Notes under the pieces: generated by a model | What the model was told of the DNA's origin: nothing | Databases searched by the model: none | Seen by the model: only the letters and a program-made list of their open reading frames with translations | Shown here: positions 2 through 32,277 of the stretch, piece after piece | How the letters are laid out: each line of letters starts with the position of its first letter | Position numbering within the stretch: position 1 is the first letter of the stretch | Virus record (IMG/VR): IMGVR_UViG_3300017772_001542 | Span: 1-33,540 of that record | Reading direction: 5' to 3' (one strand) | DNA: 33,540 bases | Source: a virus | Position numbers and translations under genes: made by a program

Positions 2-1402
2 ATGCAACCCAATGGTGTAGAGAAGATGAGAATACCACAGTTTGGTATTATCCCTACAGACAGTGAAGGTCGTGTATGGATTGATTGGAGTCAAAAGAGT
101 AAGAGAGTATCCTTAACAGATCTTCCTAAAGACTTTGGTGGTGCAGTTGTTATCGTGGACGTGACAGCCGCAGGTATAACCAACCCAGCGCCTACAGCCA
201 TAGGATCTGTATATTCTGGTGAAGTACAAGCGGCAGTTCTAGGAACAATGTTTAACGGAACTAACATTCAACGTCCTGATTGGGCTTCTATGGCAGAACT
301 ACTTGGTCTTGTGGTTGGTGGACTTCTATTAATCGCATTAAGCAAATGGATGATAGTAGGGCTGATAGCAACAGTAGGTCTTATTGGATCAGTTATACCA
401 TATTCAATGCACATGTATGCTACAGAAAAGATGTTAATAGATGTAACAGCCCCTACCATTGTCTTTGTAATCATAGCACTACAAGTATATGGTATTAAGT
501 TTGTTAGAGAATTCTTAGAGAAACAAGCTATTAAGAAACAATTTGGTGGATATGCTTCACCAGAAGTTGTGGAGATCCTACAGAAGAACCCACAACTAAT
601 TAAAGAAGGTCAGAAGAAAGAAGTAAGTATTGTATTCTCTGATCTTAGAGGTTTCACCCCATTGGGTGAATCGTTCGGAAATGATGTTAAAGGTTTGACA
701 ACAGTGATGAACAATTATATGGATGCAATTACACAACCTGTGTTAGATGCAAGTGGAATGATCATCAAATACATTGGTGACGCAACTATGCACATACACA
801 ACGCTCCTGTTAATGATCCTAGCCATCCGAAAACGGCAGTTCAGACAGGACTAAACATGCTTAAAGCAGTGGAGAAATTTAATGAAAAACTTATGGAACA
901 AGGTAAACCGCAAGTGGGTATGGGTGCCGGCATTAATACTGGCCTTGGTTATATTGGAGAGATGGGTTCTACATCCAGACACTCCTATGATATCCTCGGA
1001 GACAGTGTCAGTACAGCCGCAAGACTAGAAAGCGCATGCAAAGGGTATGGGGTTCTTTTAATTGTAGGACCCCATACCTACAACCTAACAGAAGATGATT
1101 TCTTCTATCTCAAACTAGACGATCTTGCAGTTAAAGGTAAGAGTGTGGGTTTAGAGATATATACGGTATTAGATATTGACCGTAACAAACATGGTGCGGA
1201 TATGCTCAATCACAACACCATGCATAACTTCTATGGAACACAACATTTTGATTCGGCTATTGAGATTTGTAAAGATCTGAAAGGCAAGTTTGAAGGTCAT
1301 ATGGATGACTATTATGACATCTGGATTGAACGTTGTAAGTATATGAAGACACAAGATCTCCCAAAGGATTGGGATGGGATCTTTAGAGCAACATCAAAAT
1401 AA
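2..1402 (+). CDS. CHASE2-type membrane adenylate cyclase, 5'-partial
   Basis: Class III nucleotidyl cyclase predicted to make cAMP from ATP at the inner membrane. Residues 1-95 match only the C-terminal end of a CHASE2 extracytoplasmic sensor, so the gene should begin upstream of the window. Three hydrophobic helices lie at about 97-115, 117-137 and 146-164, followed by a cyclase homology domain at about 205-390. The two metal aspartates are present (FSDLRGFT D214; YIGDATM D260), as are the adenine-selecting pair Lys256 and Asp330 (SYDILGD) and the transition-state Arg341. The usual Asn of the GDxVNxAxRL motif is Ser337 (GDSVSTAARL). The C-terminal 75 residues are outside the domain and not recognised. 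The gene is followed by a phage early promoter and shares base usage with its neighbours, so host contamination is unlikely. Family assignment is strong; activity is inferred. Confidence 0.88.
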   Translation: MQPNGVEKMRIPQFGIIPTDSEGRVWIDWSQKSKRVSLTDLPKDFGGAVVIVDVTAAGITNPAPTAIGSVYSGEVQAAVLGTMFNGTNIQRPDWASMAELLGLVVGGLLLIALSKWMIVGLIATVGLIGSVIPYSMHMYATEKMLIDVTAPTIVFVIIALQVYGIKFVREFLEKQAIKKQFGGYASPEVVEILQKNPQLIKEGQKKEVSIVFSDLRGFTPLGESFGNDVKGLTTVMNNYMDAITQPVLDASGMIIKYIGDATMHIHNAPVNDPSHPKTAVQTGLNMLKAVEKFNEKLMEQGKPQVGMGAGINTGLGYIGEMGSTSRHSYDILGDSVSTAARLESACKGYGVLLIVGPHTYNLTEDDFFYLKLDDLAVKGKSVGLEIYTVLDIDRNKHGADMLNHNTMHNFYGTQHFDSAIEICKDLKGKFEGHMDDYYDIWIERCKYMKTQDLPKDWDGIFRATSK

Positions 1403-1426: not shown

Positions 1427-1455
1427 TTGACAACTGCGAATCTATACGCTATAAA
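1427..1455 (+). promoter_or_regulatory. sigma70-like early promoter
   Basis: TTGACA at 1427-1432, a 17-bp spacer and TATAAA at 1450-1455. The spacer carries CGAATC at 1437-1442. It drives the two small genes at 1488 and 1729. Confidence 0.85.
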
Positions 1456-5445: not shown

Positions 5446-5898
5446 ATGACATTCAGAGATAAAATTCTAGAAAACTTAGAATTCAGAGACTTATCTGAGG
5501 ATCCATGTTGGGATACTCATAAACAAGTAGGAACTAAAATGAAGGGGGGCAAAGAAGTCCCTAATTGTGTTCCTAAAGAAGAAGTAGTGCAAGAACTCAC
5601 TTCTGCTGAAAAGAAGCTTATTAATCAAATGTATGACAAAAAGGGTAACCTTACACCTATGGGTAAGAAGGTTATGGCTCATGGTAAAGCAAACAGCAAA
5701 CTTACTCCTAAAGCAAGAGATGCTGATAATGCGAGACGTAAAGAATACAAAGCATTTCAAAAGAGCAAAGCTAACGAAGCTAAAAAGCCCGGTCTGTGGG
5801 ATAATATGCATGCTCGTAGGAAAGCTGGTAAACCAAAACTTAAGCCCGGTGATAAGAATTATCCTAAAACTCTTGACATTGAAAAGAGTAAAAAATAA
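5446..5898 (+). CDS. basic conserved phage protein
   Basis: A 150-residue, Lys-rich protein. Two short blocks recur in marine phage proteins: CWDTHKQVG...VPNCVPKEE (22-46) and KPGLWDNMHARRKAG (113-127). The C-terminus is basic and low in hydrophobic residues. It begins 3 nt after the preceding stop and its last base is the first base of the next ATG. A nucleic-acid-binding or virion-internal role fits the composition but is not shown. Confidence 0.72.
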   Translation: MTFRDKILENLEFRDLSEDPCWDTHKQVGTKMKGGKEVPNCVPKEEVVQELTSAEKKLINQMYDKKGNLTPMGKKVMAHGKANSKLTPKARDADNARRKEYKAFQKSKANEAKKPGLWDNMHARRKAGKPKLKPGDKNYPKTLDIEKSKK

Positions 5899-6497
5899 TG
5901 AAAACCTTTAAGTTGTTCTTAGAACGAAACTACGCCAAAGAGTACGAAAACTACCAAGGCAAGCCTGAGCAAATCGAGAAGCGTTCTTCTCGTAACAAGG
6001 CACGTAGACTAATGGCTAAAAAGATGAATGTCAAGGGTAAAGATGTTGGACATAAGGATAATGATCCACTGAACAACGATCCTAAGAACTTGCGTCTTGA
6101 AGATCCGTCAGTCAATCGTAGAGAGCCACGTCTTCGTGACAATCCTGTTGAGGAGTCTGTACAAGAGTTTAACGGTCCTCGTAGCAGAGGTCTATTACAT
6201 CGTAAAGGTGTAAAGGGTACATCTTTTGCAAATAAGATGAATAAAACTCATTCTCAAAACAAAACAGACCAACAGAAAGCCGCCGCTCGTCAGAAAGCCG
6301 CCGCCGCAGATCATGCCGCCTTCCGTAAGAAGTATCCTAACATCAAATTCGATGAGGATAATGTTGATGAATTGGCAATGACACTCAAGTCATTACGTAA
6401 ATCGGGTATTAACAGAAAAGATCTTGACAAACAGACTAAAAGTGTTAAAACAGATCTTAAAGCTCTTCGTAGTAGGTTAAATAAGGTAAAGAAATGA
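5898..6497 (+). CDS. HNH-like basic protein
   Basis: A 199-residue basic protein. Its N-terminal third, with SSRNKARRLMAKK followed by KDVGHKDNDPLNNDPKNLRL, has the layout of phage HNH nucleases (VDHKDGNPLNN...NLR). The first His of the usual DHKDG is preceded by Gly here and Gly of DG is Asn, so catalysis is uncertain. The C-terminal part has an Ala/Lys-rich helix (QQKAAARQKAAAADHAAF) and a Leu/Lys-rich tail. It is tightly coupled to both neighbours by 1-4 nt overlaps. Confidence 0.68.
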   Translation: MKTFKLFLERNYAKEYENYQGKPEQIEKRSSRNKARRLMAKKMNVKGKDVGHKDNDPLNNDPKNLRLEDPSVNRREPRLRDNPVEESVQEFNGPRSRGLLHRKGVKGTSFANKMNKTHSQNKTDQQKAAARQKAAAADHAAFRKKYPNIKFDEDNVDELAMTLKSLRKSGINRKDLDKQTKSVKTDLKALRSRLNKVKK

Positions 6498-9243: not shown

Positions 9244-9576
9244 ATGATTAAACCCCCACAGTGGTGCTCAAAGGCTATTCCAACTGTTCGTGGATGGAAA
9301 CATCACGCACGTAGAGAGATCTTGAAGCCTATGCGCTTCACTCAAGAACAGGTAGATGAATATATGAATCATATTAATGGTGAACCAGAAGTAATCGTGG
9401 AAGTTCCTACAATCGAAGAACCAGCTATGTTAAACGAAGCACCTGTTCCGGGTAATTTGGAAGACATGACTAAGGTACAACTTGAGGCATTAGGTCGTCA
9501 AAATGGTATCGAACTTGACCGTAGGAAGGGTAAAAAAACTTTGATAGATACAGTTAAGAAAGTACTGAAATCATAA
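9244..9576 (+). CDS. conserved phage protein with HeH/SAP-like C-terminus
   Basis: A 110-residue protein that starts directly after the previous stop. The N-terminus (PPQWCSKAIPTVRGWKH) is a phage-typical block. Residues 72-108 (MTKVQLEALGRQNGIELDRR and the following Lys-rich helix) have the pattern of helix-extension-helix, Rho-N-like nucleic-acid-binding modules. A short acidic, Pro-rich linker connects the two. Function unknown. Confidence 0.75.
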   Translation: MIKPPQWCSKAIPTVRGWKHHARREILKPMRFTQEQVDEYMNHINGEPEVIVEVPTIEEPAMLNEAPVPGNLEDMTKVQLEALGRQNGIELDRRKGKKTLIDTVKKVLKS

Positions 9577-9593
9577 TCAAAGTGAAGTAGTCT

Positions 9594-9956
9594 ATGGAAA
9601 TACAATTAACTGAGGATAACATCCCACTATATGCCGCCAAGCATTATTACAATCCACTTGGATCGGATCATGAAGAGTTTATAGAAGACTTAAAGAGACT
9701 GAAATACGTTAAGCGGTTGGTGAACAGATTTACTGAAACAGGATATCTGGCTGACCGCCTAATACTCAATCATCTGATTGTTATTCATAATGTGTTCGGT
9801 GTACAGCCAGGTGTGGCTATGTTGAGGATCAAATTGACAGATGACCAAATGTGTGTCATTAAACCCTTCTTGGTTTTTCTACGGTACATTACGAATGAAG
9901 AAATCACTAATGTGCCTATGGATCCTATAGTGGTCGAAAGGTTAAGGAATATATAA
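9594..9956 (+). CDS. conserved phage protein (DUF7207-like)
   Basis: A 120-residue protein with the pattern EFIEDLKRLKYVKRLVNRF, LILNHLIVIHNVFG and IKPFLVFLRYI, recurrent in T4-type marine phages and which I tentatively link to DUF7207. No catalytic motif is visible. It is immediately followed by another conserved protein, a pairing I recall from related genomes. Confidence 0.75.
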   Translation: MEIQLTEDNIPLYAAKHYYNPLGSDHEEFIEDLKRLKYVKRLVNRFTETGYLADRLILNHLIVIHNVFGVQPGVAMLRIKLTDDQMCVIKPFLVFLRYITNEEITNVPMDPIVVERLRNI

Positions 9957-10517
9957 ATGGGCATACTATCAAGAGCAGGAGACCTAGTCTATACATTGCG
10001 TTTTCTCAGGCTTTTAACAACGCCTTTTGAGAACACGACTGCGTATGAGATGGGTCTTATTGATGATAAAGGTAAGGTTCTAAAGAAAGCTTCTACACCA
10101 GAAGAAAAGAGTGCACACAATGCATTCCATAAGCTCGTATTTAATATTAAGAAACTAATACCAGGAAAACGATTTGGTTCGTATGCCGCCGCACTATATC
10201 TTCTTAAAGAGAAGTATGGAGTATCTAACTTCGAAAAGATCTTAAAGGAGAGTGGTATAGATACACTAGACTTTATGGCAGAAGATAGTGAGTGGTTTGT
10301 ATTAGAGAATAAACAATTATCCCCTGGCGTGTACAGGGTAAATGGTGACAAAGTAATTAATGATACATGTGAAGAAGTTGTTACCAAAAGAGATCAGGTA
10401 AGAATTAAAGAAGACTCTTTCCCTATCGGAGATGTCCTAGGATTGGACATTTATGAGGTAACTCATATGAGAACAGGTAAAGAGATCTACATCACGGCAG
10501 GAGAATTAATCAGATGA
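9957..10517 (+). CDS. conserved phage protein, unknown
   Basis: A 186-residue protein beginning MGILSRAGDLVYTLRFLRLL, with a C-terminal domain rich in beta-type segments (VLGLDIYEVTHMRTGKEIYI). This N-terminus is widespread in T4-type marine phages, but the function is unknown to me. It starts immediately after the preceding stop and overlaps the next gene by 4 nt. Confidence 0.75.
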   Translation: MGILSRAGDLVYTLRFLRLLTTPFENTTAYEMGLIDDKGKVLKKASTPEEKSAHNAFHKLVFNIKKLIPGKRFGSYAAALYLLKEKYGVSNFEKILKESGIDTLDFMAEDSEWFVLENKQLSPGVYRVNGDKVINDTCEEVVTKRDQVRIKEDSFPIGDVLGLDIYEVTHMRTGKEIYITAGELIR

Positions 10518-10690
10518 TTAAAGAAGATGCACCTACTAACTCAGTGGCACATGGCGGTGTTGATATGGCACCCAATGCAGTACCTAAACCTAAAGAGATT
10601 AGTGTAACAGATAAAAGACATTCTAAAAAGAAACAACCAGTGTTGTTAAAGAGATTTAGAAAGTTTCAAGAGGGTTGGAAGAATGGCTAA
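10514..10690 (+). CDS. small phage protein
   Basis: A 58-residue protein with the N-terminal block EDAPTNSVAHGGVDMAPNA and a basic C-terminus (KRFRKFQEGWKNG). The 'EDAPTN' type block recurs at the ends of other phage proteins. ATGA overlap with the gene before; its end overlaps the i-spanin start by 8 nt. Function unknown. Confidence 0.68.
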   Translation: MIKEDAPTNSVAHGGVDMAPNAVPKPKEISVTDKRHSKKKQPVLLKRFRKFQEGWKNG

Positions 10691-11099
10691 AGTATACCTA
10701 TTCATAATCCTAGTATCTATCTTAGGATCCAGTGGATATGGTGGATACAGATATTACTTATGGTCTCAAGAGACTATGAACACACTTCGTGAGAACAATG
10801 TGAAGTTAGAAGCTGTTACAGTTACACAGGCTAACACCATCAAAGAGATGACAGAGAATGCAGAACGTAATGAAGCATTAAATGCAAACCTAACTAAAGC
10901 ACTACAGAACTCACAAGTACACTTGGATGCTTTGAGAAGTAAATTCTCGAAGATTGATTTAACTATGGAAGCTATAACAAACCCACAAGGTTTGGAAGAA
11001 AGGGTTGACAATGCAGTCGCTAGACTTATTAAAAGAATTGAAGATGAAACATCTCCTCCTACTGACACCGATGATGCTGATGGGGTGTCTGGGCAGTAA
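10683..11099 (+). CDS. i-spanin (Rz-like)
   Basis: A 138-residue protein with one N-terminal membrane anchor (VYLFIILVSILGSSGYGGY, 4-22) and a long Asn/Glu/Leu periplasmic coiled coil. This is the type II layout of an inner-membrane spanin. The gene encoding a lipoprotein begins inside it in another frame, as in Rz/Rz1 pairs. With its partner it would fuse inner and outer membrane in the last step of lysis, which implies a Gram-negative host. Assignment rests on architecture and context. Confidence 0.8.
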   Translation: MAKVYLFIILVSILGSSGYGGYRYYLWSQETMNTLRENNVKLEAVTVTQANTIKEMTENAERNEALNANLTKALQNSQVHLDALRSKFSKIDLTMEAITNPQGLEERVDNAVARLIKRIEDETSPPTDTDDADGVSGQ

Positions 11100-11406
11100 C
11101 GTAGAACCGAAGGTAATTACGCAAACAGAATTTGTGCAACAATCTGTGCCTATCCAAGCCAGACCTAAAGGTGTGGCTATGCCACCTGTAGATTGGTATG
11201 TGGTTAATGGAGATAACGTTGACGAATTCCTACAGAGAGTTCAAGACGATACTGGACAACCAGTCTTCTTTGCTATTACACCTAAAGGATATGAGAACCT
11301 AGCACTAGGCATTGGTGACCTACGCCGATACATCAAAGACACTCAGGCTATTGTTGGATACTATGAGGAAGCTCTAGATCCAAAGGAAGAGCCAACTGAG
11401 GAATAG
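11044..11406 (+). CDS. o-spanin lipoprotein (Rz1-like)
   Basis: A 120-residue lipoprotein. MKHLLLLTPMMLMGC gives a basic start, a hydrophobic core and an LMGC lipobox with lipidated Cys15. The mature part begins with the Pro-containing stretch RPKGVAMPPVDW and ends acidic. It starts within the i-spanin gene in a different frame (56-nt overlap) and continues beyond it. It is expected in the outer membrane inner leaflet, contacting the i-spanin coiled coil. Confidence 0.82.
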   Translation: MKHLLLLTPMMLMGCLGSNVEPKVITQTEFVQQSVPIQARPKGVAMPPVDWYVVNGDNVDEFLQRVQDDTGQPVFFAITPKGYENLALGIGDLRRYIKDTQAIVGYYEEALDPKEEPTEE

Positions 11407-20026: not shown

Positions 20027-20812
20027 ATGAAAAGATTAATCTATCAAGTGTATGTTGGGGCAAGATCTAACTTATACGATTGGTGTACTGAAAGTGTAAA
20101 GGCATATGCAGAAAGCATTAATGCCGATTATATCTTACAGACAATGCCCAAACTGTTTATCAAACCAGATCCCTTTACTACTAATCGTAGTGAGGGTGCT
20201 TCTCGTTTAGGATACCTTCCTATCTTTGAGAAAGAGAATGCCTTTGAGTATTTCCCTGAGTATGATCAGATAGCTATCATTGACAGTGACATCTACATTC
20301 GTGAGAACTCTCCCAATGTATTTGATGAGATAGGTGATAACGACTTCGCAGGTGTCTATGAACGTGAGATGCCAGTCACTCCCGAATACGCTAATAAGAT
20401 CCGTAACTATTCTAGAATGCAGTATAGTTCTCTTGACGGTCAGTCAGGTATGGACTTCGACTTCGATCATCCTAATGGTGGTGCGTTTATGAATATGGGC
20501 ATGATGGTCATGAATAAATCGTTCTCAAAACAATTAAATGGTATGTCACCCAAAGAGTGGATCACCCAACCTATGTTTAAAGCATTCGTTGATGGTAAGG
20601 GTACGTGGAAGTGGTCAACAGATCAGACACTGCTTAACACATTTATTAACATGAATAAGATCAGTGTAAAACATCTTGACTATAAGTTCAATGCATTGTA
20701 TACTGCAATTCCTAATGACTATTTGAAAGAAGCACATTTTATCCACTTCTTCCTTAAGGATAAGCTTCCTAACAGAGGTGAGAATGTAGAGGAGCTAAAG
20801 CAAATTGTCTAA
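20027..20812 (+). CDS. glycosyltransferase, GT8-like
   Basis: A 261-residue putative nucleotide-sugar glycosyltransferase. IAIIDSDIYIREN has the DxD metal/sugar-nucleotide motif (D86, D88) at the end of a hydrophobic strand, and HPNGGAFMNMGMMVMN resembles the acceptor-side motif of GT-A enzymes. First gene of an eight-gene sugar cassette with overlapping ends. The acceptor (virion protein, host surface sugar or modified base) cannot be read from sequence. Confidence 0.78.
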   Translation: MKRLIYQVYVGARSNLYDWCTESVKAYAESINADYILQTMPKLFIKPDPFTTNRSEGASRLGYLPIFEKENAFEYFPEYDQIAIIDSDIYIRENSPNVFDEIGDNDFAGVYEREMPVTPEYANKIRNYSRMQYSSLDGQSGMDFDFDHPNGGAFMNMGMMVMNKSFSKQLNGMSPKEWITQPMFKAFVDGKGTWKWSTDQTLLNTFINMNKISVKHLDYKFNALYTAIPNDYLKEAHFIHFFLKDKLPNRGENVEELKQIV

Positions 20813-21599
20813 TCTAATATATCAATACTATCAAGGGAATGTAACTACTGGCATATGGGCAGGGGTTAAACTCATGAAAGCCTATGCTGAAAGAATTGGT
20901 GCTGAGTACATTTTTGATAACAATCCAAATTGGATACACACCACACTATCTCCATACTATGGCGCATTTCGTCCAGTGATTGATCCTGAGTTTAATAAGT
21001 ATGACAATATCCTATTTGCAGATTGTGATATCATTCCTATTGATGGCCTTACTGATAACATCTTTGATGAGATGGATGATCACGATCTATTGCTTGCCGA
21101 AGAATGGAACCAACCAGAAGCAAGAGCCAAATATAATGTTGGTGGTATTACTGGTGCTAGAGATGATGAGTGGGCAGAATGGGCTAAACAGACATATGGG
21201 GTGACTGTGCCAAGAACTGAAAGTGGTAGGGTAAGAGTATTTAATTCTGGCGTTGTCTTGTACTCCAAAGAGGGACGAAAGAAGTTTCGTGACCTTGTTG
21301 GTGACTTTCCTCTGTCTGTTGCACTTTACATAAGTGGAGCCAATAGATTTCCTAAATTCTATACACTTGATCAGAACTACTTAAATATAATGATGTGTGG
21401 TGTCAATTGGGGATTGTTAGACTATAAGTGGAATAGTTCAGTAAGCTATGTGCCACAAACACAAGATCCAAGACCTGTACTTGATTTAAGAACAAAAGAT
21501 ACTAAGTTTGTTCACGTACAAATAAGAGGTAAAGGAGACTTTCCTATATGGAAGATGCAGAAGATTGCTGATAAACCTGTGGAAGAATGGAAGCTATGA
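20805..21599 (+). CDS. glycosyltransferase, GT8-like
   Basis: A 264-residue protein sharing the general plan of its neighbour: N-terminal LIYQYYQGN against LIYQVYVGA, then ILFADCDIIP (D73, D75) as DxD, RVFNSGVVLY as the NSG motif, and a C-terminal VHVQIRGKGDFP. The start is TTG 20805, overlapping the preceding stop, with GGAG at 20790-20793. Likely arisen by duplication of the gene before. Confidence 0.78.
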   Translation: MSNLIYQYYQGNVTTGIWAGVKLMKAYAERIGAEYIFDNNPNWIHTTLSPYYGAFRPVIDPEFNKYDNILFADCDIIPIDGLTDNIFDEMDDHDLLLAEEWNQPEARAKYNVGGITGARDDEWAEWAKQTYGVTVPRTESGRVRVFNSGVVLYSKEGRKKFRDLVGDFPLSVALYISGANRFPKFYTLDQNYLNIMMCGVNWGLLDYKWNSSVSYVPQTQDPRPVLDLRTKDTKFVHVQIRGKGDFPIWKMQKIADKPVEEWKL

Positions 21600-21615
21600 C
21601 GAAAAAGGAACTAAT

Positions 21616-22185
21616 ATGATTAATGTTGAACTAGGCCATGTAAAGAATTTGGTAGAATTTTATGATGAGATCCGTAGTGGTCAAGAGGGAGAACATGGAG
21701 ATGATTACTGTGGTCAACATGATGCTATCAAGTTCTATGCTAAAGATTGTGACAGTTATAGAGAACTAGGAACACACCAAGGTGGCACATTAGCCAATGC
21801 ACTTCTCAGTGGTTTTGATTATGTAGAAGGTGTTGATATTGATATGCATCGTTATCGCAAATTCTGTCAACCCCATGCAGAACACTATGCACGAGAGAAT
21901 GGCATTCAGTTAGTTATTAAAGAAGTTGATAGTGCAGGTTTGGGTGCTGTGGGTAGACAAGTAGATATGCTGTTGATCGATAGTATTCACAAAGCCTACC
22001 ATATGACAAAAGAATTAGACCTACATGCTCCTCTTGCTAGGAAGTATATTGTAGCACACGACACAAACACAGTTCCAGAACTACAAGCTTGTCTTGAGAG
22101 GTTCTGCCAAAAGAACTCCGAGTGGAGCATCATTGAACGTGGAGTTGTTAATGTTGGCTTTACGGTGTTACAGAAGAATGCCTAA
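21616..22185 (+). CDS. class I SAM methyltransferase-like (CmcI-like)
   Basis: A 189-residue protein with ELGTHQGGTLA (50-60) as SAM-binding motif I and GVDID (72-76) as the acidic strand-2 motif, then DMLLIDSIHKAYH and YIVAHDTNTV as later core strands. The pattern resembles CmcI-like small-molecule methyltransferases. In a sugar cassette it probably methylates a sugar. ATG 21616 has AAGGAA at 21605-21610. Confidence 0.75.
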   Translation: MINVELGHVKNLVEFYDEIRSGQEGEHGDDYCGQHDAIKFYAKDCDSYRELGTHQGGTLANALLSGFDYVEGVDIDMHRYRKFCQPHAEHYARENGIQLVIKEVDSAGLGAVGRQVDMLLIDSIHKAYHMTKELDLHAPLARKYIVAHDTNTVPELQACLERFCQKNSEWSIIERGVVNVGFTVLQKNA

Positions 22186-22852
22186 TATAATATTACAACA
22201 CTTCGATGGAGAGCTACGTGAACTAGATCTTCTATCTATGACAAACATTCAAAATTATGCAAAAGATGTTGGTGCAGACTATCAACTTGTCAAAGGCATG
22301 CCATTCCGTGATCATCTAACAGCACCTTGTCAGAAGGTGTTCATGATCGACGAACAGTATGATGATTATGATGATGTTCTAATGTTAGACATTGACATGT
22401 TTGTACCAAAGAATATGAATAAGAACATATTTGATGAAGTGGGTGTTGGTTTATACAATCCTATTCAACAGAATTTACATGCCAAGTTGGTGAGACAACA
22501 CTCTTTCCAAGGATCCATGGAAGCTCCTTATTGGGGTGGTGCTATCTACAAGATGGATAGAGCATTACGTCAAAAGCTGAGATCTGGATTAGGTGGTAAT
22601 GAGAATTGGATGAATGCGTACAATCAACCATATCAGTGGGAAGACGAAGGCATCTTTCATACACTTGCTTTTAGAACAGGTGTTAAGATATCCGATGATC
22701 AGTTCTTACATCCAAAGTGGTGCTATGACAACTATCTAGAATATCCACAATACGCTGGAATGATCCATGTGCGTACAAAGATTACACCCACAGGACCTAA
22801 GCAAGAGAAGATCAAAAACTATAGAGCATTAGTGGAAAGGGGTATTTTATAA
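22178..22852 (+). CDS. glycosyltransferase-like protein
   Basis: A 224-residue GT-A-type protein: VLMLDIDMFVP supplies the DxD (D71, D73), preceded by the same KAYAE/QNYAKDVGADYQL helix-strand as the two GT8-like neighbours. PYWGGAIYKMD takes the place of the NSG motif. ATG 22178 overlaps the methyltransferase end by 8 nt. Confidence 0.75.
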   Translation: MPNIILQHFDGELRELDLLSMTNIQNYAKDVGADYQLVKGMPFRDHLTAPCQKVFMIDEQYDDYDDVLMLDIDMFVPKNMNKNIFDEVGVGLYNPIQQNLHAKLVRQHSFQGSMEAPYWGGAIYKMDRALRQKLRSGLGGNENWMNAYNQPYQWEDEGIFHTLAFRTGVKISDDQFLHPKWCYDNYLEYPQYAGMIHVRTKITPTGPKQEKIKNYRALVERGIL

Positions 22853-23547
22853 TGGAAGCCCTTGTTATTACCATAAAGGGTAATGAATTAAGTGAAACTG
22901 CCGCCGCTAACTGTATTGCATCTTCAGCTAAGTTGGATAATAAATTTAGAGTAAAGACCTTTGAAGCTACCACACCAGAAGATGTTGAAGAGTGGGTTAA
23001 GGCATACAAGCTTACATGGAATTGGCCTTGGGATGGTGAGATCCATGACATGGCCTCTGGACTTAGGAAGGTGGCATATCAAACGGCTAACCGACATGCT
23101 CGTGTGGCATGTTCAATGAGTCATTTTAGATTATGGGATAGATGTTCTAGAAACAAATCGCCTATGCTTATACTAGAGCATGATGCAATATTTACAGACA
23201 AGATTAACGTTAAGACCTACCTAAACAAGGGATTTAATATCATAGGTATTAATTCTCCACTAGGAGCAACACGTAAGTCACAACAATTCCATGATATAAT
23301 ACAGAACAGAAAAGAAGTTATACAACCAGTTCCCCATATAGATGGTTGGGGTGTGCCTCAAGGTATCGCTGGAAACAGTGCATATATACTAACACCAGAT
23401 GGGGCTGATGATTTGCTGAGAGCATCCTATCAGTATGGTCTGTGGCCTAATGATGCTATAATGTGTAGACAGATGATAAAGCATATAGGTGTGACTAAGA
23501 AGTATTACACTACAATTCAACGTACTAGGAGTACGACTACGTTATGA
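22852..23547 (+). CDS. GT25-like glycosyltransferase, paralogue 1
   Basis: A 231-residue protein of the LPS-biosynthesis GT25 type. N-terminal ALVITIKGN, CSMSHFRLW (87-95, the conserved SHxxLW) and LILEHDAIF (106-114, in place of ILEDDA) are diagnostic. GIAGNSAYILTPDGA matches the later GxxAYxLT motif. It is a clear paralogue of the next gene. Last and first bases overlap both neighbours. Confidence 0.8.
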   Translation: MEALVITIKGNELSETAAANCIASSAKLDNKFRVKTFEATTPEDVEEWVKAYKLTWNWPWDGEIHDMASGLRKVAYQTANRHARVACSMSHFRLWDRCSRNKSPMLILEHDAIFTDKINVKTYLNKGFNIIGINSPLGATRKSQQFHDIIQNRKEVIQPVPHIDGWGVPQGIAGNSAYILTPDGADDLLRASYQYGLWPNDAIMCRQMIKHIGVTKKYYTTIQRTRSTTTL

Positions 23548-24194
23548 GAGCATTTGTTATCACAATAAAAGATAATCCACAGAGTGTGGAGATGTCTGAT
23601 CGTTGCATCAAATCATTTAAAAAGCATAATGATGATAGTATAGAAGCATTTGATGCTATAACACCAGAAACAACTGAAGTGTTTTCTTTGGCACATTACC
23701 ACGGAGTTCCTGTAAAGAACTTCTTAGAGAAATACTCTAGATATGATAGATGTGTATCCGCATTCCTATCACATTTTCTTTTATGGAAGAAGTGTATTGA
23801 GCTAGACGAATCTATTATCATATTCGAACACGATGCTGTTGTTAAAGCACCCATTCCTAAGATGCCATTCAACGGACTTGTGAACATTGGAAAACCAAGC
23901 TATGGTAAATACCTCATACCTAACCTAGGTCTTGGTAAATTGGTTTCAAAACAATACTTACCCGGAGCACATGCGTATGCTATTACACCCAAGGGTGCTG
24001 AAGCTATCATTGCCGAGACAGTATTCAATGCACAACCAACAGACGTTTATCTTAACAATAGATTATTTCCATGGATTGAAGAGTACTACCCATGGCCTGT
24101 AGATTGTGAAGATAGTTTTACAACTATTCAGAATGAGACAGGTTGTTTAGCCAAACATAATTATGGAAACGGAGAAGACTATGGGATTATCTAG
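23544..24194 (+). CDS. GT25-like glycosyltransferase, paralogue 2
   Basis: A 216-residue paralogue of the gene before: AFVITIKDN, LSHFLLW (75-81), IIFEHDAVV (92-100), GAHAYAITPKGAE. Sequence has diverged well beyond recent duplication, so different acceptors are likely. ATGA overlap at its start. Confidence 0.8.
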   Translation: MRAFVITIKDNPQSVEMSDRCIKSFKKHNDDSIEAFDAITPETTEVFSLAHYHGVPVKNFLEKYSRYDRCVSAFLSHFLLWKKCIELDESIIIFEHDAVVKAPIPKMPFNGLVNIGKPSYGKYLIPNLGLGKLVSKQYLPGAHAYAITPKGAEAIIAETVFNAQPTDVYLNNRLFPWIEEYYPWPVDCEDSFTTIQNETGCLAKHNYGNGEDYGII

Positions 24195-24813
24195 TAAACA
24201 ATTCAATAAACTTTATATAACAGGTTGTGATAAGAATACAGACTGGATGCTACCTTGGTTTGAAGAGAACTTTACTCTACACAATCAAGATGCACAATTG
24301 GCTGTATATGAGTTCGATACATTCAGAGAGGATTTGGAAGGTTGGTTTAAGAAACCTGCAGCGATGATAGATGCGTCTCAGATTGCAGATCAGGTTGTTT
24401 GGATTGATACCGACTGCCACATCAAGGGCAATCTAGATGGGATCTTTAATCACATCACACCCAATAAACTTACTATGGCTATTGATCGTCCTTGGACTAC
24501 ACGCCGTTCTAATCGTGGAACTTGGTATAATAGTGGTGTTGTGGGCTTTGAAGGTGTTCCACCAGTACTATCCGAATGGGCTAGATACATTCAAGATGGC
24601 TTGACAAAAGAAGTTGGGGATCAGGAAGTATTGAACTGGATGTTAGGTGGGGATCCTATTAGAGAGATTACTCACATGAATACATTGCCACCTATGTACA
24701 ATTTTCTACGCCTAGATATACAAGATGAGTACCCAGGATATGAGAGTGCTAAGGTTGTGCACTGGACAGGTGGTAAGGGTAAAGAAGTAATTAAAGAGAT
24801 GATGAATGTCTGA
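24181..24813 (+). CDS. glycosyltransferase-like protein
   Basis: A 210-residue GT-A-type protein: VVWIDTDCHIKGN (D76, D78), then TWYNSGVVGFEG with the NSG motif and VVHWTGGKGKE near the end, as in GT8-type enzymes. ATG 24181 is chosen for GGAGAAG at 24171-24177; the frame is open from 24163. The single GCAGC of the window lies in this gene at 24358-24362. Confidence 0.76.
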   Translation: MGLSSKQFNKLYITGCDKNTDWMLPWFEENFTLHNQDAQLAVYEFDTFREDLEGWFKKPAAMIDASQIADQVVWIDTDCHIKGNLDGIFNHITPNKLTMAIDRPWTTRRSNRGTWYNSGVVGFEGVPPVLSEWARYIQDGLTKEVGDQEVLNWMLGGDPIREITHMNTLPPMYNFLRLDIQDEYPGYESAKVVHWTGGKGKEVIKEMMNV

Positions 24814-25405
24814 AGATATTGTTAATGTTATTGGTAATGGTCAGTCCGCTGGATATTTCAAGGAAGATCAAAAGGGCATTCGCCTAACGTGTAATCTACC
24901 ACCATTTGAAGTGAAGAATGTATTTGCAACTATTATGGTTGACTTCAAGATGATGAGAGCAATCCAAGAAGGAAGTGTAACAGTTCCTGGTCATTGGATA
25001 CTTGGTAACAGACCTAAGATCCACATGGAACAAAACTCTAGCTTTTACATGAAGCATGCCTCACAGATACGAGGCTTCTATCTAGAAGTACCACCATATG
25101 CACGTAATGCCACAGATTTTAATTGTGGACATGTAGCAACTCACTATGGTGTGAGTAGATGGAAACCAAAAGTATGTAACATGTTTGGATTTAACTCTAT
25201 CTTTGACTTTGACATGACAAGTGCTACAGACTTCTATCTCGAATCAGATCGTGGTGATATAAACAATAATAGATTAGCAAACAATTGGAGAGGTATTTGG
25301 CCTCAGTTGTTTAATGAATTTCCAGATACAGAATTTAGGCTACACCACAAGCATGCTAATGCTAAAATGCAGTGTCCCAAAAATGTCACTATTATTACTC
25401 CTTGA
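24806..25405 (+). CDS. sugar-cassette protein, Rossmann-like start
   Basis: A 199-residue protein starting VNVIGNGQSAGYFKE, a short strand plus GNG/GxS turn like that of DUF115-type and sialyltransferase-like proteins. Further blocks are VFATIMVDFKMM and NMFGFNSIFDFD. It closes the sugar cassette and its stop overlaps the -35 box of the next promoter. Function unknown; a transferase role is likely from context. Confidence 0.6.
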   Translation: MSEDIVNVIGNGQSAGYFKEDQKGIRLTCNLPPFEVKNVFATIMVDFKMMRAIQEGSVTVPGHWILGNRPKIHMEQNSSFYMKHASQIRGFYLEVPPYARNATDFNCGHVATHYGVSRWKPKVCNMFGFNSIFDFDMTSATDFYLESDRGDINNNRLANNWRGIWPQLFNEFPDTEFRLHHKHANAKMQCPKNVTIITP

Positions 25406-26051: not shown

Positions 26052-26546
26052 ATGAATGATGATAAATTAGGCTACTTGGCTATTGGTGCCGCCGCTATAC
26101 TAATTGCTTTTACTGCGACAAGTGCAAAGGCAAACAATGCAACGCCAATTAACGGTACTATTCAAGATTATTATAAAGTTGTACAAGACAGTGAACCATA
26201 CACAAAGAAAGAGTGTGTGAATGTAAACGTTCCAGTATATGGTAATGTTACACAAGAAGGAGATGCCGCAGGTGGAGCCTTGCTTGGTATGATCCTTGGT
26301 GGTCTTGTTGGTAAAGGTGTTACAGGTGACGATAAAGGTGCCGCCGCAGGAGCTATCTTTGGTGGTCTTGTTGGTGCCGATAAAGGTGCTAAACCAAAAT
26401 CTGGACAGGTTGTCACAGGATACCGAACTGAGAACCGTTGCGATTACGTAACTTATTATCGTACCATTGAGCGTACTGAGTATGATTACTCAATCATTAA
26501 TTGGAAAATTGACGGTGTTACTTACACAACTGAATTTGTAAAATAA
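26052..26546 (+). CDS. glycine-zipper envelope protein with signal peptide
   Basis: A 164-residue secreted protein. Residues 8-27 are hydrophobic and end in AKA, a signal-peptidase-I type site. Residues 74-111 (GGALLGMILGGLVGKG and AAAGAIFGGLVGADKG) form a two-helix glycine zipper, as in Rick_17kDa_Anti/2TM proteins of outer membranes. The rest is Tyr/Thr-rich with Cys55 and Cys130 that could pair. There is no lipobox. AAGGAGAA at 26039-26046 sets the start. A role in envelope alteration, superinfection exclusion or lysis is possible. Confidence 0.8.
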   Translation: MNDDKLGYLAIGAAAILIAFTATSAKANNATPINGTIQDYYKVVQDSEPYTKKECVNVNVPVYGNVTQEGDAAGGALLGMILGGLVGKGVTGDDKGAAAGAIFGGLVGADKGAKPKSGQVVTGYRTENRCDYVTYYRTIERTEYDYSIINWKIDGVTYTTEFVK

Positions 26547-27178
26547 TGAGCGTCACGGAGTATACAGTAGCTCCGATAACCATACAGGAAGCCACACCAT
26601 TTGTAGAGAATTGGCACTACTCCAAGAATACAAATGGTTTGGCTACACGATATTGTTTTGGACTGTTTAGAGGATCCGAAATGATTGGTTGTATGATTTA
26701 CGCCTACTTAGGTATGGCGAGTGTTTGGAAGAAGTATGGTGAAGTAGAGACAGACGTAGTAGAACTAAGGAGACTATGCTGTATTGACGATACTCCCAAG
26801 AACACTGAAAGCTACTTTATAGCGAAAACTATTAAGTGGTTGAAGGCAGAGACTGATTGTAAAGTAGTAGTGAGTTATGCAGATACCATGCAAGGTCACG
26901 TTGGAACTATATACCATGCATCTAACTTCTATCATCTAGGCATGACAGCCAAGGGTAGATCGATAAAGATTAAAGGTAATAATCGTCTCTATCATGAGAA
27001 GACTATTAGGACATACTATCAACCTGTGAACGGAGAAAGACGTTTGAAACCATATGCTCAGAAGATCAAAGAGCAGTTGGAGAATGGTGAAGCAGAGTAT
27101 GTCCATAGTGAAGGTAAACACATATTCGTCTATCCTTTGAATAAAAAAGAGAGACGAAAGTATAGGAAGTTAATATGA
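26546..27178 (+). CDS. Mom-like GNAT family DNA-modification protein
   Basis: A 210-residue protein that I assign to the Mom-like branch of GNAT folds: ENWHYSK (21-27), GCMIYAYLG (48-56), VVELRRLCCIDDTPKNTESY (71-90), and VVVSYADTMQGHVGTIY then HASNF (107-128) match the core of phage Mu Mom and its relatives. Mu Mom adds a carbamoylmethyl group to adenine N6 and blocks restriction. A basic 50-residue tail follows. It overlaps neighbours by 1 and 4 nt. Chemistry in this phage is inferred, not shown. Confidence 0.78.
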   Translation: MSVTEYTVAPITIQEATPFVENWHYSKNTNGLATRYCFGLFRGSEMIGCMIYAYLGMASVWKKYGEVETDVVELRRLCCIDDTPKNTESYFIAKTIKWLKAETDCKVVVSYADTMQGHVGTIYHASNFYHLGMTAKGRSIKIKGNNRLYHEKTIRTYYQPVNGERRLKPYAQKIKEQLENGEAEYVHSEGKHIFVYPLNKKERRKYRKLI

Positions 27179-27753: not shown

Positions 27754-28287
27754 ATGGTTCATTTGACAAGCCTAGATATGCTAAAGAGGACAGGAACGAA
27801 TGCTGAGAGTGATGAATGTTATACTCCATCAGATCAGATCATTCCTCTTCTTAAATATTTAGATAAGGATAAGACTTACTATGAAGCAACTTCTGGAATC
27901 TCTTCTAACATACTTGACGGAATGGTTAAATTCGGTTATAATGTGGTTGGAAGTGGGGGAAGAGACTTTTTTGAATGCAATTCTGATGACGTGTTTGATG
28001 GGATTATTACTAACCCACCTTATAGTCTAAAGGATAAGTTCATTGAACACTGCTATTCGTTAGGGAAACCATTTGCGTTATTCCTACCTGTAGCATCTTT
28101 CCAAGGTGGTAAACGTGGACAGATGTTCATGGACTACGGTATGTCATGTTTAGTCTACAATAATAGAGTAGACTTCACAGGTGGTGGTGCACCACATTTT
28201 GGTAACGCTTGGTTTATGCATGGGATCCTACCACCCAACACGATATATTGGGCTAATAACCCAAAGATGAGAGGAAAGCGAAAATGA
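27754..28287 (+). CDS. NPPY-type adenine methyltransferase-like protein
   Basis: A 177-residue protein of the amino-methyltransferase type. TNPPYSLKDKFIEH (86-99) is catalytic motif IV with NPPY, as in N6-adenine methyltransferases, and DECYTP (20-25) matches the N-terminal block of phage Dam-like enzymes. Motif I is weak (EATSGISSNI, 44-53). Much shorter than full DNA methyltransferases, with no target-recognition domain. ATG 27754 lies almost on its AAGGA, so TTG 27763 may be the real start. It sits beside Mom-like and ABC/GNAT genes. Confidence 0.75.
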   Translation: MVHLTSLDMLKRTGTNAESDECYTPSDQIIPLLKYLDKDKTYYEATSGISSNILDGMVKFGYNVVGSGGRDFFECNSDDVFDGIITNPPYSLKDKFIEHCYSLGKPFALFLPVASFQGGKRGQMFMDYGMSCLVYNNRVDFTGGGAPHFGNAWFMHGILPPNTIYWANNPKMRGKRK

Positions 28288-29345
28288 AGGTAACAGTAGA
28301 ACGTGATAAGATCACAGATGAGATCAGCGAGATCTTCGACTATGAGTTTGACGGAACATCTACGTTCCATCCTCATGAGATTAATTCATTAGATCGTGAA
28401 ACCGTTCTATCTGATTTTGGTATTGGTTTAATTGTGGGACCTTCGGGATCTGGCAAGACTACTTTACTGAAAGAGTTTGGTGAAGAGTATGAACCTTATT
28501 GGTTTGATAACAAATCTATTGCTTCTCATTTCGATGACATCGATGACGTACAGGACAGACTAGGTGCTGTTGGATTTAACTCTGTACCGTCTTGGATGCG
28601 TCCCTATCATGTACTATCTAATGGTGAACAGTTTAGAGCTAGGTTAGCTCGACAGTTAGACAGCAACATTGTTGTTGATGAGTTCACATCTGTTATCGAC
28701 AGAGATGTTGCCAAGAGTTGTTCTAATGCTATCTCACGATATGTTAAGAGACACAACTTAAAGAACATTGTATTTTCATCTTGTCATTATGACATTATTG
28801 AGTGGTTGCAACCAGATTGGGTATTTGATACTCAGACTGGTAAGCTGACCACAAGGGGGTATCAAAGGCCAGATATCGTTCTGGAAATTTTACCTTGTAC
28901 CAGAGACATCTGGACGCACTTCAGCGACCACCACTATCTCGACCACAACATCCACAAAGGTGCATCTTGTTGGATCGCAACATGGAACGGCAGACTTGTC
29001 GGATTTCTTTCTAGCCTAAGCATGCCTTCGGGCAGTCTTAAGAATGCATGGAGAGCACATAGAGTTGTGATACTTCCAGAGTTCCAAGGGCTAGGTATTG
29101 GTGCCAGACTTATGGATGCCCTAGGTGATATGCACGTTGCAGAAGGTAAAAGATTCTTTCTCAAAACAAGTCACCCTAGACTAGGCGAATACTGTAATAG
29201 AAATGATGCTTGGAAAGGCACATCAAAGAACGGTATTGCCAGACCTGACTATAAAACTAATTCTAGTACCTATGGCGGATTTGCTGAAGGACTACAAAAG
29301 CATATGAATAGAATATGCTATTCCCATGAATATATCGGAAAATAG
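28284..29345 (+). CDS. ABC-type ATPase fused to a GNAT acetyltransferase domain
   Basis: A 353-residue fusion resembling COG2401. The N-terminal ATPase has Walker A GPSGSGKT (52-59), signature LSNGEQ (111-116), Walker B NIVVDEFTS (128-136, D132/E133) and switch His168. It has no membrane partner, so it is not a transporter. From about 200 a GNAT domain follows with VVILPEFQGLGIGARLMDAL (261-280), including the acetyl-CoA loop QGLGIG. Family function is unknown; the setting with Mom-like and methyltransferase-like genes suggests nucleic-acid modification. ATGA overlap with the gene before. Confidence 0.86.
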   Translation: MKVTVERDKITDEISEIFDYEFDGTSTFHPHEINSLDRETVLSDFGIGLIVGPSGSGKTTLLKEFGEEYEPYWFDNKSIASHFDDIDDVQDRLGAVGFNSVPSWMRPYHVLSNGEQFRARLARQLDSNIVVDEFTSVIDRDVAKSCSNAISRYVKRHNLKNIVFSSCHYDIIEWLQPDWVFDTQTGKLTTRGYQRPDIVLEILPCTRDIWTHFSDHHYLDHNIHKGASCWIATWNGRLVGFLSSLSMPSGSLKNAWRAHRVVILPEFQGLGIGARLMDALGDMHVAEGKRFFLKTSHPRLGEYCNRNDAWKGTSKNGIARPDYKTNSSTYGGFAEGLQKHMNRICYSHEYIGK

Positions 29346-31353: not shown

Positions 31354-32277
31354 TTGAGAGAGTTTTTAAATTATATGGCGGAAGCCGAAGTAATAGACGA
31401 GGAGTATATCGAAGCACACTTTGATATTCTTCTTGAAAAGCTTATTACATTTGGTGGTAAGGCATATCCAAAGTTTGGCAACGTTGTAATCATGGCGGGC
31501 GGAGCGGGATCTGGTAAAGGTTTTGTTAAGGATAATCTAGTTGGACTTGAAGGTAAAGTCTTTGACGTGGATGCTCTTAAGACTGCCGCCGCCAAAGCAC
31601 CTAAGATTATTGCTAAGGTTAAGGCTGAGACAGGCCAAGACTTGGCTAAGATCGGTGGTAACCTCAAGAAGGCAAGTAATGTAAGTGCCATGCACGATAT
31701 CATCTCAAACCTTCTAAACCTACCAGATAAGAAACAGGCGGCATTCTTTGCTTCTGTATTTTCATCTGCCCCTGATCGTAAGCCTAATATTATTTTTGAT
31801 GTTACGCTAAAGGATCTACAGAAATTAAATAACATTACACGTCAAGTATCTGCCCTAGGGTATGATAAGAAAAGCATTCACATTGTGTGGGTAGTTAATG
31901 ATATTGAGGTTGCTAAGGCACAGAACAAGAAGAGGGATCGTGTGGTTCCTACTGACATTCTTGTCAACACTCATAGAGGTGCTTCTGCCACCATGAATGA
32001 TATTGTGAACATGGGTAACGGTCTTAAGAAGTATATGGACGGAGATATCGTGTTTGCATTCAATAAGGTTGGTGTAGACAGTGAACTCGTTAAGTCTGGC
32101 AAGAGCGGTAAAAAGATTGGCATGAAGGGTAAGACCGAGGGTGGTCAATATCTAAAGGATGCTGAATACTTCTATGTTAAGCGTAAGGGTGCACGAGCTA
32201 TTCCTGTAGCCAAGTTGGATAAACAGATACGTATGAAGATCTCCAAATATGTACCAAAGGGAGTGGAGTGGAACTGA
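31354..32277 (+). CDS. P-loop kinase, zeta-toxin-like
   Basis: A 307-residue P-loop protein. VVIMAGGAGSGKGFVKDNL gives Walker A (49-56), FDVDALK (70-76) the acidic residues after strand 2, and NIIFDVTLKD a further core strand. VWVVNDIEVAKAQNKKR then VNTHRGA resemble the arginine-rich lid of zeta-type kinases. Start is TTG 31354 with GTGGAGAA upstream. T4-type marine phages often carry such kinases; the substrate is unknown. Confidence 0.75.
   Translation: MREFLNYMAEAEVIDEEYIEAHFDILLEKLITFGGKAYPKFGNVVIMAGGAGSGKGFVKDNLVGLEGKVFDVDALKTAAAKAPKIIAKVKAETGQDLAKIGGNLKKASNVSAMHDIISNLLNLPDKKQAAFFASVFSSAPDRKPNIIFDVTLKDLQKLNNITRQVSALGYDKKSIHIVWVVNDIEVAKAQNKKRDRVVPTDILVNTHRGASATMNDIVNMGNGLKKYMDGDIVFAFNKVGVDSELVKSGKSGKKIGMKGKTEGGQYLKDAEYFYVKRKGARAIPVAKLDKQIRMKISKYVPKGVEWN

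Follow-up and report, generated by a model that had tools for sequence, protein, structure and literature searches.

Whether a phage truly encodes a CHASE2-type class III nucleotidyl cyclase and, if so, what such an enzyme would do in the infected cell, is the question raised by the first frame of the IMG/VR virus record IMGVR_UViG_3300017772_001542, whose positions 1 to 33,540 (33,540 nucleotides, the whole stretch analysed) are here called the window. The original prediction had read this frame as a sensor-linked cyclase which probably makes cAMP and possibly redirects Crp-type control of carbon use, and had named no established case of such a cyclase in a T4-type phage. An uninterrupted frame of 466 codons indeed occupies positions 2-1402 (+) and corresponds to the C-terminal 466 residues of a 678-residue protein in which CHASE2 is joined to a class III cyclase domain. 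A gene start at position 2 was rejected, since the Met found there is internal, being residue 213 of the full protein, where the window opens; the full gene has 678 codons in near-identical contigs, as at 9365-11401 of the IMG/VR contig L002. The cyclase protein encoded by contigs L001, L002 and L003 is identical to that of the window; their DNA is not, and the DUF932 neighbour in L002 differs by one residue. The parts of the gene present in the window are the following:

2..1402, + strand: C-terminal part of the CHASE2-cyclase gene (open frame; full protein 678 aa)
47..325, + strand: C-terminal part of CHASE2 (Pfam PF05226), presumably extracytoplasmic; the remainder falls before the window
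284..544, + strand: three helices predicted by AlphaFold2, presumed to be membrane helices 2-4 and to run into the linker
608..1144, + strand: class III nucleotidyl cyclase catalytic domain (Pfam PF00211), with solved-structure relatives such as CyaB (3r5g)
1193..1348, + strand: helical C-terminal tail; the AlphaFold2 model places three helices between residues 610 and 661

Profile searches bore out the predicted architecture. In the window part, residues 16-108 matched positions 152-253 of the 257 in PF05226 (E 2.1e-08) and residues 203-381 matched PF00211, Guanylate_cyc (E 1.2e-18, 67.8 bits, cut-off 21.9), and in the full protein CHASE2 covered residues 16-320 (E 6.4e-32, 111.5 bits, cut-off 26.3) and Guanylate_cyc residues 415-593 (E 2.6e-18). 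The nearest solved structures, by sequence and by fold, are class III cyclases, with CyaB of Pseudomonas aeruginosa among the best, and a protein of an uncultured phage matches the fold over nearly the whole length (TM 0.84). The predicted model comprises, in this order, an N-terminal helix, a confident CHASE2, three helices (residues 307-325, 329-354 and 361-393 of the full protein), the cyclase domain and the helical tail. The three helices before the cyclase would cross the membrane, thus anchoring the enzyme. The model is poor at the catalytic loops, with pLDDT under 50 at residues 469-473 and 531-544. The active site was read at the following positions of the sequence:

641..643 (GAT), + strand: first metal-binding Asp, D426; Asp in 154/154 phage and 43/43 bacterial frames
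767..769 (AAA), + strand: purine-site Lys, K468; Lys in 154/154 phage and 43/43 bacterial frames
779..781 (GAC), + strand: second metal-binding Asp, D472; Asp in 154/154 phage and 43/43 bacterial frames
989..991 (GAT), + strand: purine-site Asp, D542; Ser or Thr in the bacterial relatives read
1010..1012 (AGT), + strand: Ser at the transition-state position, S549; Asn in the bacterial relatives read
1022..1024 (AGA), + strand: transition-state Arg, R553; Arg in 152/152 phage frames reaching that site

Both metal-binding Asp, the purine-site Lys and Asp (ATP type) and the catalytic Arg had been described as intact, and all are present, but the partner of the transition-state Arg, normally Asn, is Ser here and had been overlooked, so that the usual class III Asn-Arg pair is incomplete. 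According to the available part of PMC4215837, most ACs and GCs carry this pair. The same source describes Ma1120, in which a Lys/Asp pair specifies ATP, the transition-state Asn is naturally Ala and an Ala to Asn change cut the activity drastically. Because Ma1120 is active without it, the lack of Asn neither excludes class III membership nor means a dead enzyme. On these residues the window protein is most likely an ATP cyclase that may well be active with Ser in place of Asn, and the earlier statement that it probably makes cAMP can be kept as a reading of the residues.

The substitution is not peculiar to the window. Counting distinct frames (stop-to-stop frames differing in sequence, near-copies included), 65 of the 66 phage proteins of a first set combine a purine-site Asp with a transition-state Ser (Asp/Ser), the exception being Pelagibacter phage HTVC008M, and all 43 bacterial frames have Ser or Thr followed by Asn. 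A second phage set, seeded with HTVC008M and with a CsgG query, added 82 Ser/Asn and 4 Asp/Ser frames, with 2 more ending before the motif, and a sample from the wider phylum added 27 bacterial frames, all with Ser/Thr and Asn. The totals, for phage frames drawn from the best 80 of 158 relatives of the window protein and the best 80 of at least 585 of the HTVC008M one, are 69 Asp/Ser and 83 Ser/Asn, next to 70 bacterial frames which are all Ser/Thr plus Asn; collapsing at 95% identity leaves 52 and 62 phage frames, respectively, and at 90% 50 and 50. No mixed combination occurs among the 152 readable phage and 70 bacterial frames. No description of the Asp/Ser variant was found in the literature searched, consisting mostly of open papers and with little of the search aimed at the active site; the consistently altered site of one large phage lineage, which includes the window phage, looks new.

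Such a linked replacement of Ser/Thr by Asp and of Asn by Ser could have turned the product into another cyclic nucleotide, or shifted the balance of substrates, keeping the phage signal apart from the cAMP circuit of the host. That two positions of the substrate pocket always differ together speaks for this explanation, as does the weak match of the cyclase part to the Pycsar PycC models of PADLOC (best E 1.1e-15), though the HTVC008M type matches them better (9.8e-25). A match of this kind is, however, expected of any class III domain, as it covers only the shared cyclase fold. The PycC models also carry no score cut-off. Pycsar membership goes with an effector gene beside the cyclase, and PF00027, the effector domain looked for, gave no match in 23 phage records. 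Since Lys with Asp is the ATP-specifying pair in Ma1120 (PMC4215837, in the part available), we regard a changed product as quite unlikely, and an ATP cyclase remains the preferred reading of the active site.

In a quickly built tree of 68 rows, most of them sampled at random from 185, the Asp/Ser forms make a single clade (support 100) and the Ser/Asn phage forms require two changes, with L307 standing apart. Phage and bacterial forms are separated in two quick trees (SH-aLRT 97 and, for the 68-row tree, 100), both midpoint-rooted, built with long-branch warnings and with bacteria taken from one class. The single Asp/Ser clade and the split between phages and bacteria suggest that the Asp/Ser state results from one change after entry into phages, the long branches calling for care. 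The altered cyclases are under purifying selection: comparison with seven relatives gave dN/dS values of 0.06-0.14 in the cyclase part and 0.06-0.10 in CHASE2 (six pairs for each, with saturation in the remaining one) and of 0.14-0.17 in the C-terminal tail (3 of the 7 pairs). These values bear on a further alternative, namely that proteins of the Asp/Ser clade make little cAMP and act as nucleotide-binding regulators, or as very weak cyclases, relaying the CHASE2 signal. The transition-state Asn, part of the pair found in most ACs and GCs, is missing from all 69 distinct frames of the clade, in keeping with such a role; yet both metal-binding Asp, the Lys and the Arg are kept, the cyclase part is constrained and Ma1120 works without the Asn. 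We consider this alternative unlikely.

The original prediction placed the gene in phage DNA, a chimeric join being one doubt. Extension through near-identical contigs showed phage genes upstream. In L002 the cyclase is the last gene of a row reading CsgF-CsgG-curlin-FecR-curlin-cyclase, in which CsgF (E 2e-13), CsgG (3.2e-50), FecR (8.5e-10) and a Curlin_rpt protein (1.9e-11) were recognised. Neither Pfam nor NCBIfam gave a curlin match for the first curlin-like protein, which was named after its counterparts annotated as curlin-associated in the phages Melnitz and HTVC008M. One-base stop/start overlaps join CsgF to CsgG, the first curlin to FecR and the second curlin to the cyclase, and the FecR protein has, by eye only, a signal-peptide-like start. 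Further upstream L002 carries, among other frames, a DnaB-like helicase, ThyX, an endolysin-like protein and two small proteins, and downstream, in the window, DUF932, ribonucleotide reductase subunits and PhoH follow; the cyclase thus has phage genes on either side. The window itself is cut before CsgF, CsgG and FecR, and its phage probably carries the same upstream genes as L001 and L002. A chimeric contig was judged unlikely, given that L001-L003 share an identical cyclase protein and that ThyX and the curli row lie upstream of it in L001 and L002; L003 begins inside CsgG.

Early promoters had also been predicted downstream. Two promoter-like motifs can be pointed out, TTGACA-17-TATATT at 1954-1982, which a scan lists, and the one below, but the number found by scanning positions 1300-2100 (3) is no more than that in shuffled sequences (mean 2.4). 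The scan accepts a second hexamer only if it ends in T, and the site below is hence unlisted by it:

1427..1455, + strand: promoter-like TTGACA-17-TATAAA, located by eye after the cyclase and before the next frame at 1488

Many ocean phages carry a cyclase of this kind, and its association with curli genes is general in the sample. Both CsgG and FecR lie within 10 kb of the cyclase (midpoint to midpoint, either strand) in all 60 phage loci with at least 7 kb upstream, out of 160 fetched, a count made with profile models built from phage loci and not collapsed for near-copies. It comprises 42/42 eligible loci among the best 80 of 158 relatives for the window query and 18/18 among the best 80 of at least 585 for the HTVC008M query; for the two queries, respectively, CsgF is near the cyclase in 42/42 and 17/18 loci, and at least one of the two small proteins in 42/42 and 16/18. 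The latter (L002:4949-5227 and 5594-5941) accompany the curli module, at times in the other orientation; both match phrog_18771, with no Pfam match, and are probable paralogues. Many loci have the two small genes beyond the cyclase on the opposite strand; in L072 and L077 it is curli genes and cyclase that point in opposite directions. CsgE (PF10627), part of the complete curli system of E. coli, was detected in the E. coli control but in none of 23 phage records, and the absence of CsgE from the phage curli module is likewise reported in the available part of PMC9599517. No sigma factor family, such as the FecI that accompanies FecR in anti-sigma systems, was found among 10 module proteins scanned. 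This fixed neighbourhood points to the curli/FecR module as the context of the enzyme, whereas the proposed redirection of Crp-type carbon control is not supported.

Seen from CsgG, the dependence is looser. Among 39 CsgG loci, 24 have 6 kb downstream; FecR is present in 24/24 and the cyclase in 19/24, and the remaining five, with FecR and no cyclase match, imply that the curli row can do without the cyclase. These five (L300, L301, L302, L305 and L309) have FecR and the second curlin, and no cyclase match despite at least 6 kb past CsgG. The cyclase could then be a passenger travelling with curli genes, of little effect in present hosts, an idea to which the lack of any cNMP receptor among 23 phage records also lends itself. 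A passenger would hardly be under purifying selection, however, nor be present in the other 19 of the 24 CsgG loci, and we find this explanation improbable compared with a cyclase working within the module.

If the enzyme makes cAMP, something has to read it. The cNMP-binding domain PF00027 was found in none of the 23 phage records, which include the whole Melnitz-3 and HTVC008M and were chosen among the longer ones (21 are IMG/VR contigs, possibly fragments), while PF00211 was found in 23/23; the signal would therefore need a host receptor. In the class of bin G001 (taken as Alphaproteobacteria), 284 of 385 genomes have PF00027 and in 101 it was not found, so that the receptor may be absent from the host; 18 of the 20 genomes listed among these 101 are under 2 Mb.

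Bin G001, titled Rhodobacteraceae bacterium and the genome of L084, is itself peculiar. It holds the one relative retrieved by searching genome contigs with the full cyclase, and phage-type curli genes on C129, C173, C200 and C240; these four CsgF contigs resemble the phage module. It is also one of the five among the 385 genomes in which CsgF was found. No cNMP-binding domain match was found in it, which is odd for Rhodobacteraceae, and part of the bin may be viral, or the bin incomplete.

Bacterial CHASE2 class III cyclases from the class and phylum of G001 have the same two domains as the phage protein, with at most 38% identity to it among the matches listed outside that bin, and differ from the window clade in having Ser/Thr and Asn (70/70 frames) where the latter has Asp/Ser. 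A FecR-like protein was detected near them in 11 of 33 regions versus 0 of 20 control regions, for which 13 of these genomes were used (Fisher p 0.004), the 33 regions being a non-random choice that favoured longer contigs (20 from about the first 33 listed matches, 13 from lower ones). Eight of the 11 FecR proteins lie at most 420 bases upstream of the cyclase, 4 of them co-oriented with it and 4 divergent, and three are 1.5-2.6 kb downstream. In the other 22 regions, several short-flanked, FecR gave no match with a model derived from phage proteins, which bacterial FecR may escape. No CsgG or CsgF match was obtained in the 33 regions. A cluster of CHASE2 cyclase and FecR-domain protein is in print for Campylobacterota (PMC9239204, in the part available). 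Bacterial curli operons were rejected as the source of the whole module: in the small sample of four curli regions from the other CsgF-bearing genomes there was no FecR or cyclase match in 20 kb, in agreement with PMC9599517, according to whose accessible text bacterial curli operons contain neither FecR nor the cyclase. Most simply, a phage ancestor would have combined curli genes with a FecR-CHASE2-cyclase sensing pair of bacterial origin.

Taken together, we favour, with a confidence somewhat above even, a membrane-anchored phage cyclase that senses the curli/FecR state through CHASE2 and alters host cAMP. CHASE2, on the outer side of the inner membrane, would receive an envelope signal, which would most probably reach it by way of the FecR-domain protein encoded in the same row, a partnership suggested by gene order. 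What FecR conveys would be the condition of the curli (type VIII) export machinery that the phage itself encodes, or of the amyloid subunits of that machinery; in response, the cyclase on the cytoplasmic side would alter cAMP in the infected cell, and a host cNMP-binding protein would read the change, possibly to the benefit of the phage. The domains, the residues, the conserved row of genes, the grouping of the phage forms on the tree and the purifying selection are established by computation; the membrane topology, the ATP substrate, activity with Ser, the FecR partnership, the host receptor and the gain to the phage are inferred. The gene is a real and conserved phage signalling gene within a known module, and the mechanism is plausible. 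A bolder version, which we consider quite unlikely, is that a clade of marine phages made a private second-messenger enzyme out of a bacterial CHASE2 cyclase, the linked two-residue change re-tuning its activity or product, and that curli export, through FecR and CHASE2, controls the cell. Should the enzyme prove active, infection by these phages would bring a cyclic-nucleotide signal into the cell, and the close link with curli export would offer a testable answer to two questions: what it is that the cyclase senses, and for what purpose curli genes are carried by phages. The sharp division into two active-site types also offers a natural experiment on class III cyclases lacking the transition-state Asn.

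Other frames of the window deserve mention. A Mom-family protein (PF25680, E 2.8e-41) at 26546-27178 suggests Mom-type DNA modification in this T4-like phage. A P-loop/ABC-type ATPase region fused to a GNAT acetyltransferase is found at 28284-29345, preceded at 27754-28287 by a frame that has no Pfam match but in which an NPPY motif was spotted by eye. A Zeta-toxin-like protein (PF06414, E 2.4e-07) lies at 31354-32277, and a run of glycosyltransferase-like frames, recognised by eye, at 20027-25405; the two frames of that run which were scanned gave GT25 (E 4.4e-11) and GT8, just under its cut-off.

The supposed lack of precedent in T4-type phages, the main novelty claim, fails: the Melnitz and HTVC008M records already name the cyclase, and its pairing with curli is in print. 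A 2022 paper (PMC9599517) describes, in the part available, FecR and adenylate cyclase with curli (type VIII secretion) genes in pelagiphages, both podo- and myoviruses, and viral curli proteins with FecR at all 65 ocean stations examined. The terms CHASE2, catalytic, active site and asparagine are absent from its main text, and the word cyclase from those of the Melnitz (PMC9004378) and pelagimyophage (PMC7029224) papers. As far as the accessible text goes, the pelagiphage module of PMC9599517 shares with the present one CsgF, CsgG, curlin, FecR and often a second curlin and cyclase. In its podoviruses the curli genes are preceded by one or two histidine kinases, whereas most loci here have the two small paralogous proteins at or near that place; no annotated curli gene was seen in bases 1-45000 of podovirus MW574966 (59769). 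Among named relatives, the cyclase of the Methylophilales phage Melnitz is 48% identical over the full length (54% over residues 2-466 of the window part) and shares Asp/Ser, whereas that of HTVC008M is 33% identical (35% over residues 4-349) and has Ser/Asn like the bacteria; both have the same neighbour genes as the window type. Ma1120 of Mycobacterium avium resembles the window cyclase in its Lys/Asp substrate pair and in lacking the transition-state Asn, and differs in having Ala rather than Ser at that site, with no CHASE2 link noted in the available part of PMC4215837. For the sensing side, the closest parallel is a biofilm-control operon of Burkholderia (PMC5192318, as far as available), in which a FecR-LysM protein is paired with a CHASE2 sensor, as in the phage row; that system is bacterial, and its output is a histidine kinase instead of a cyclase.
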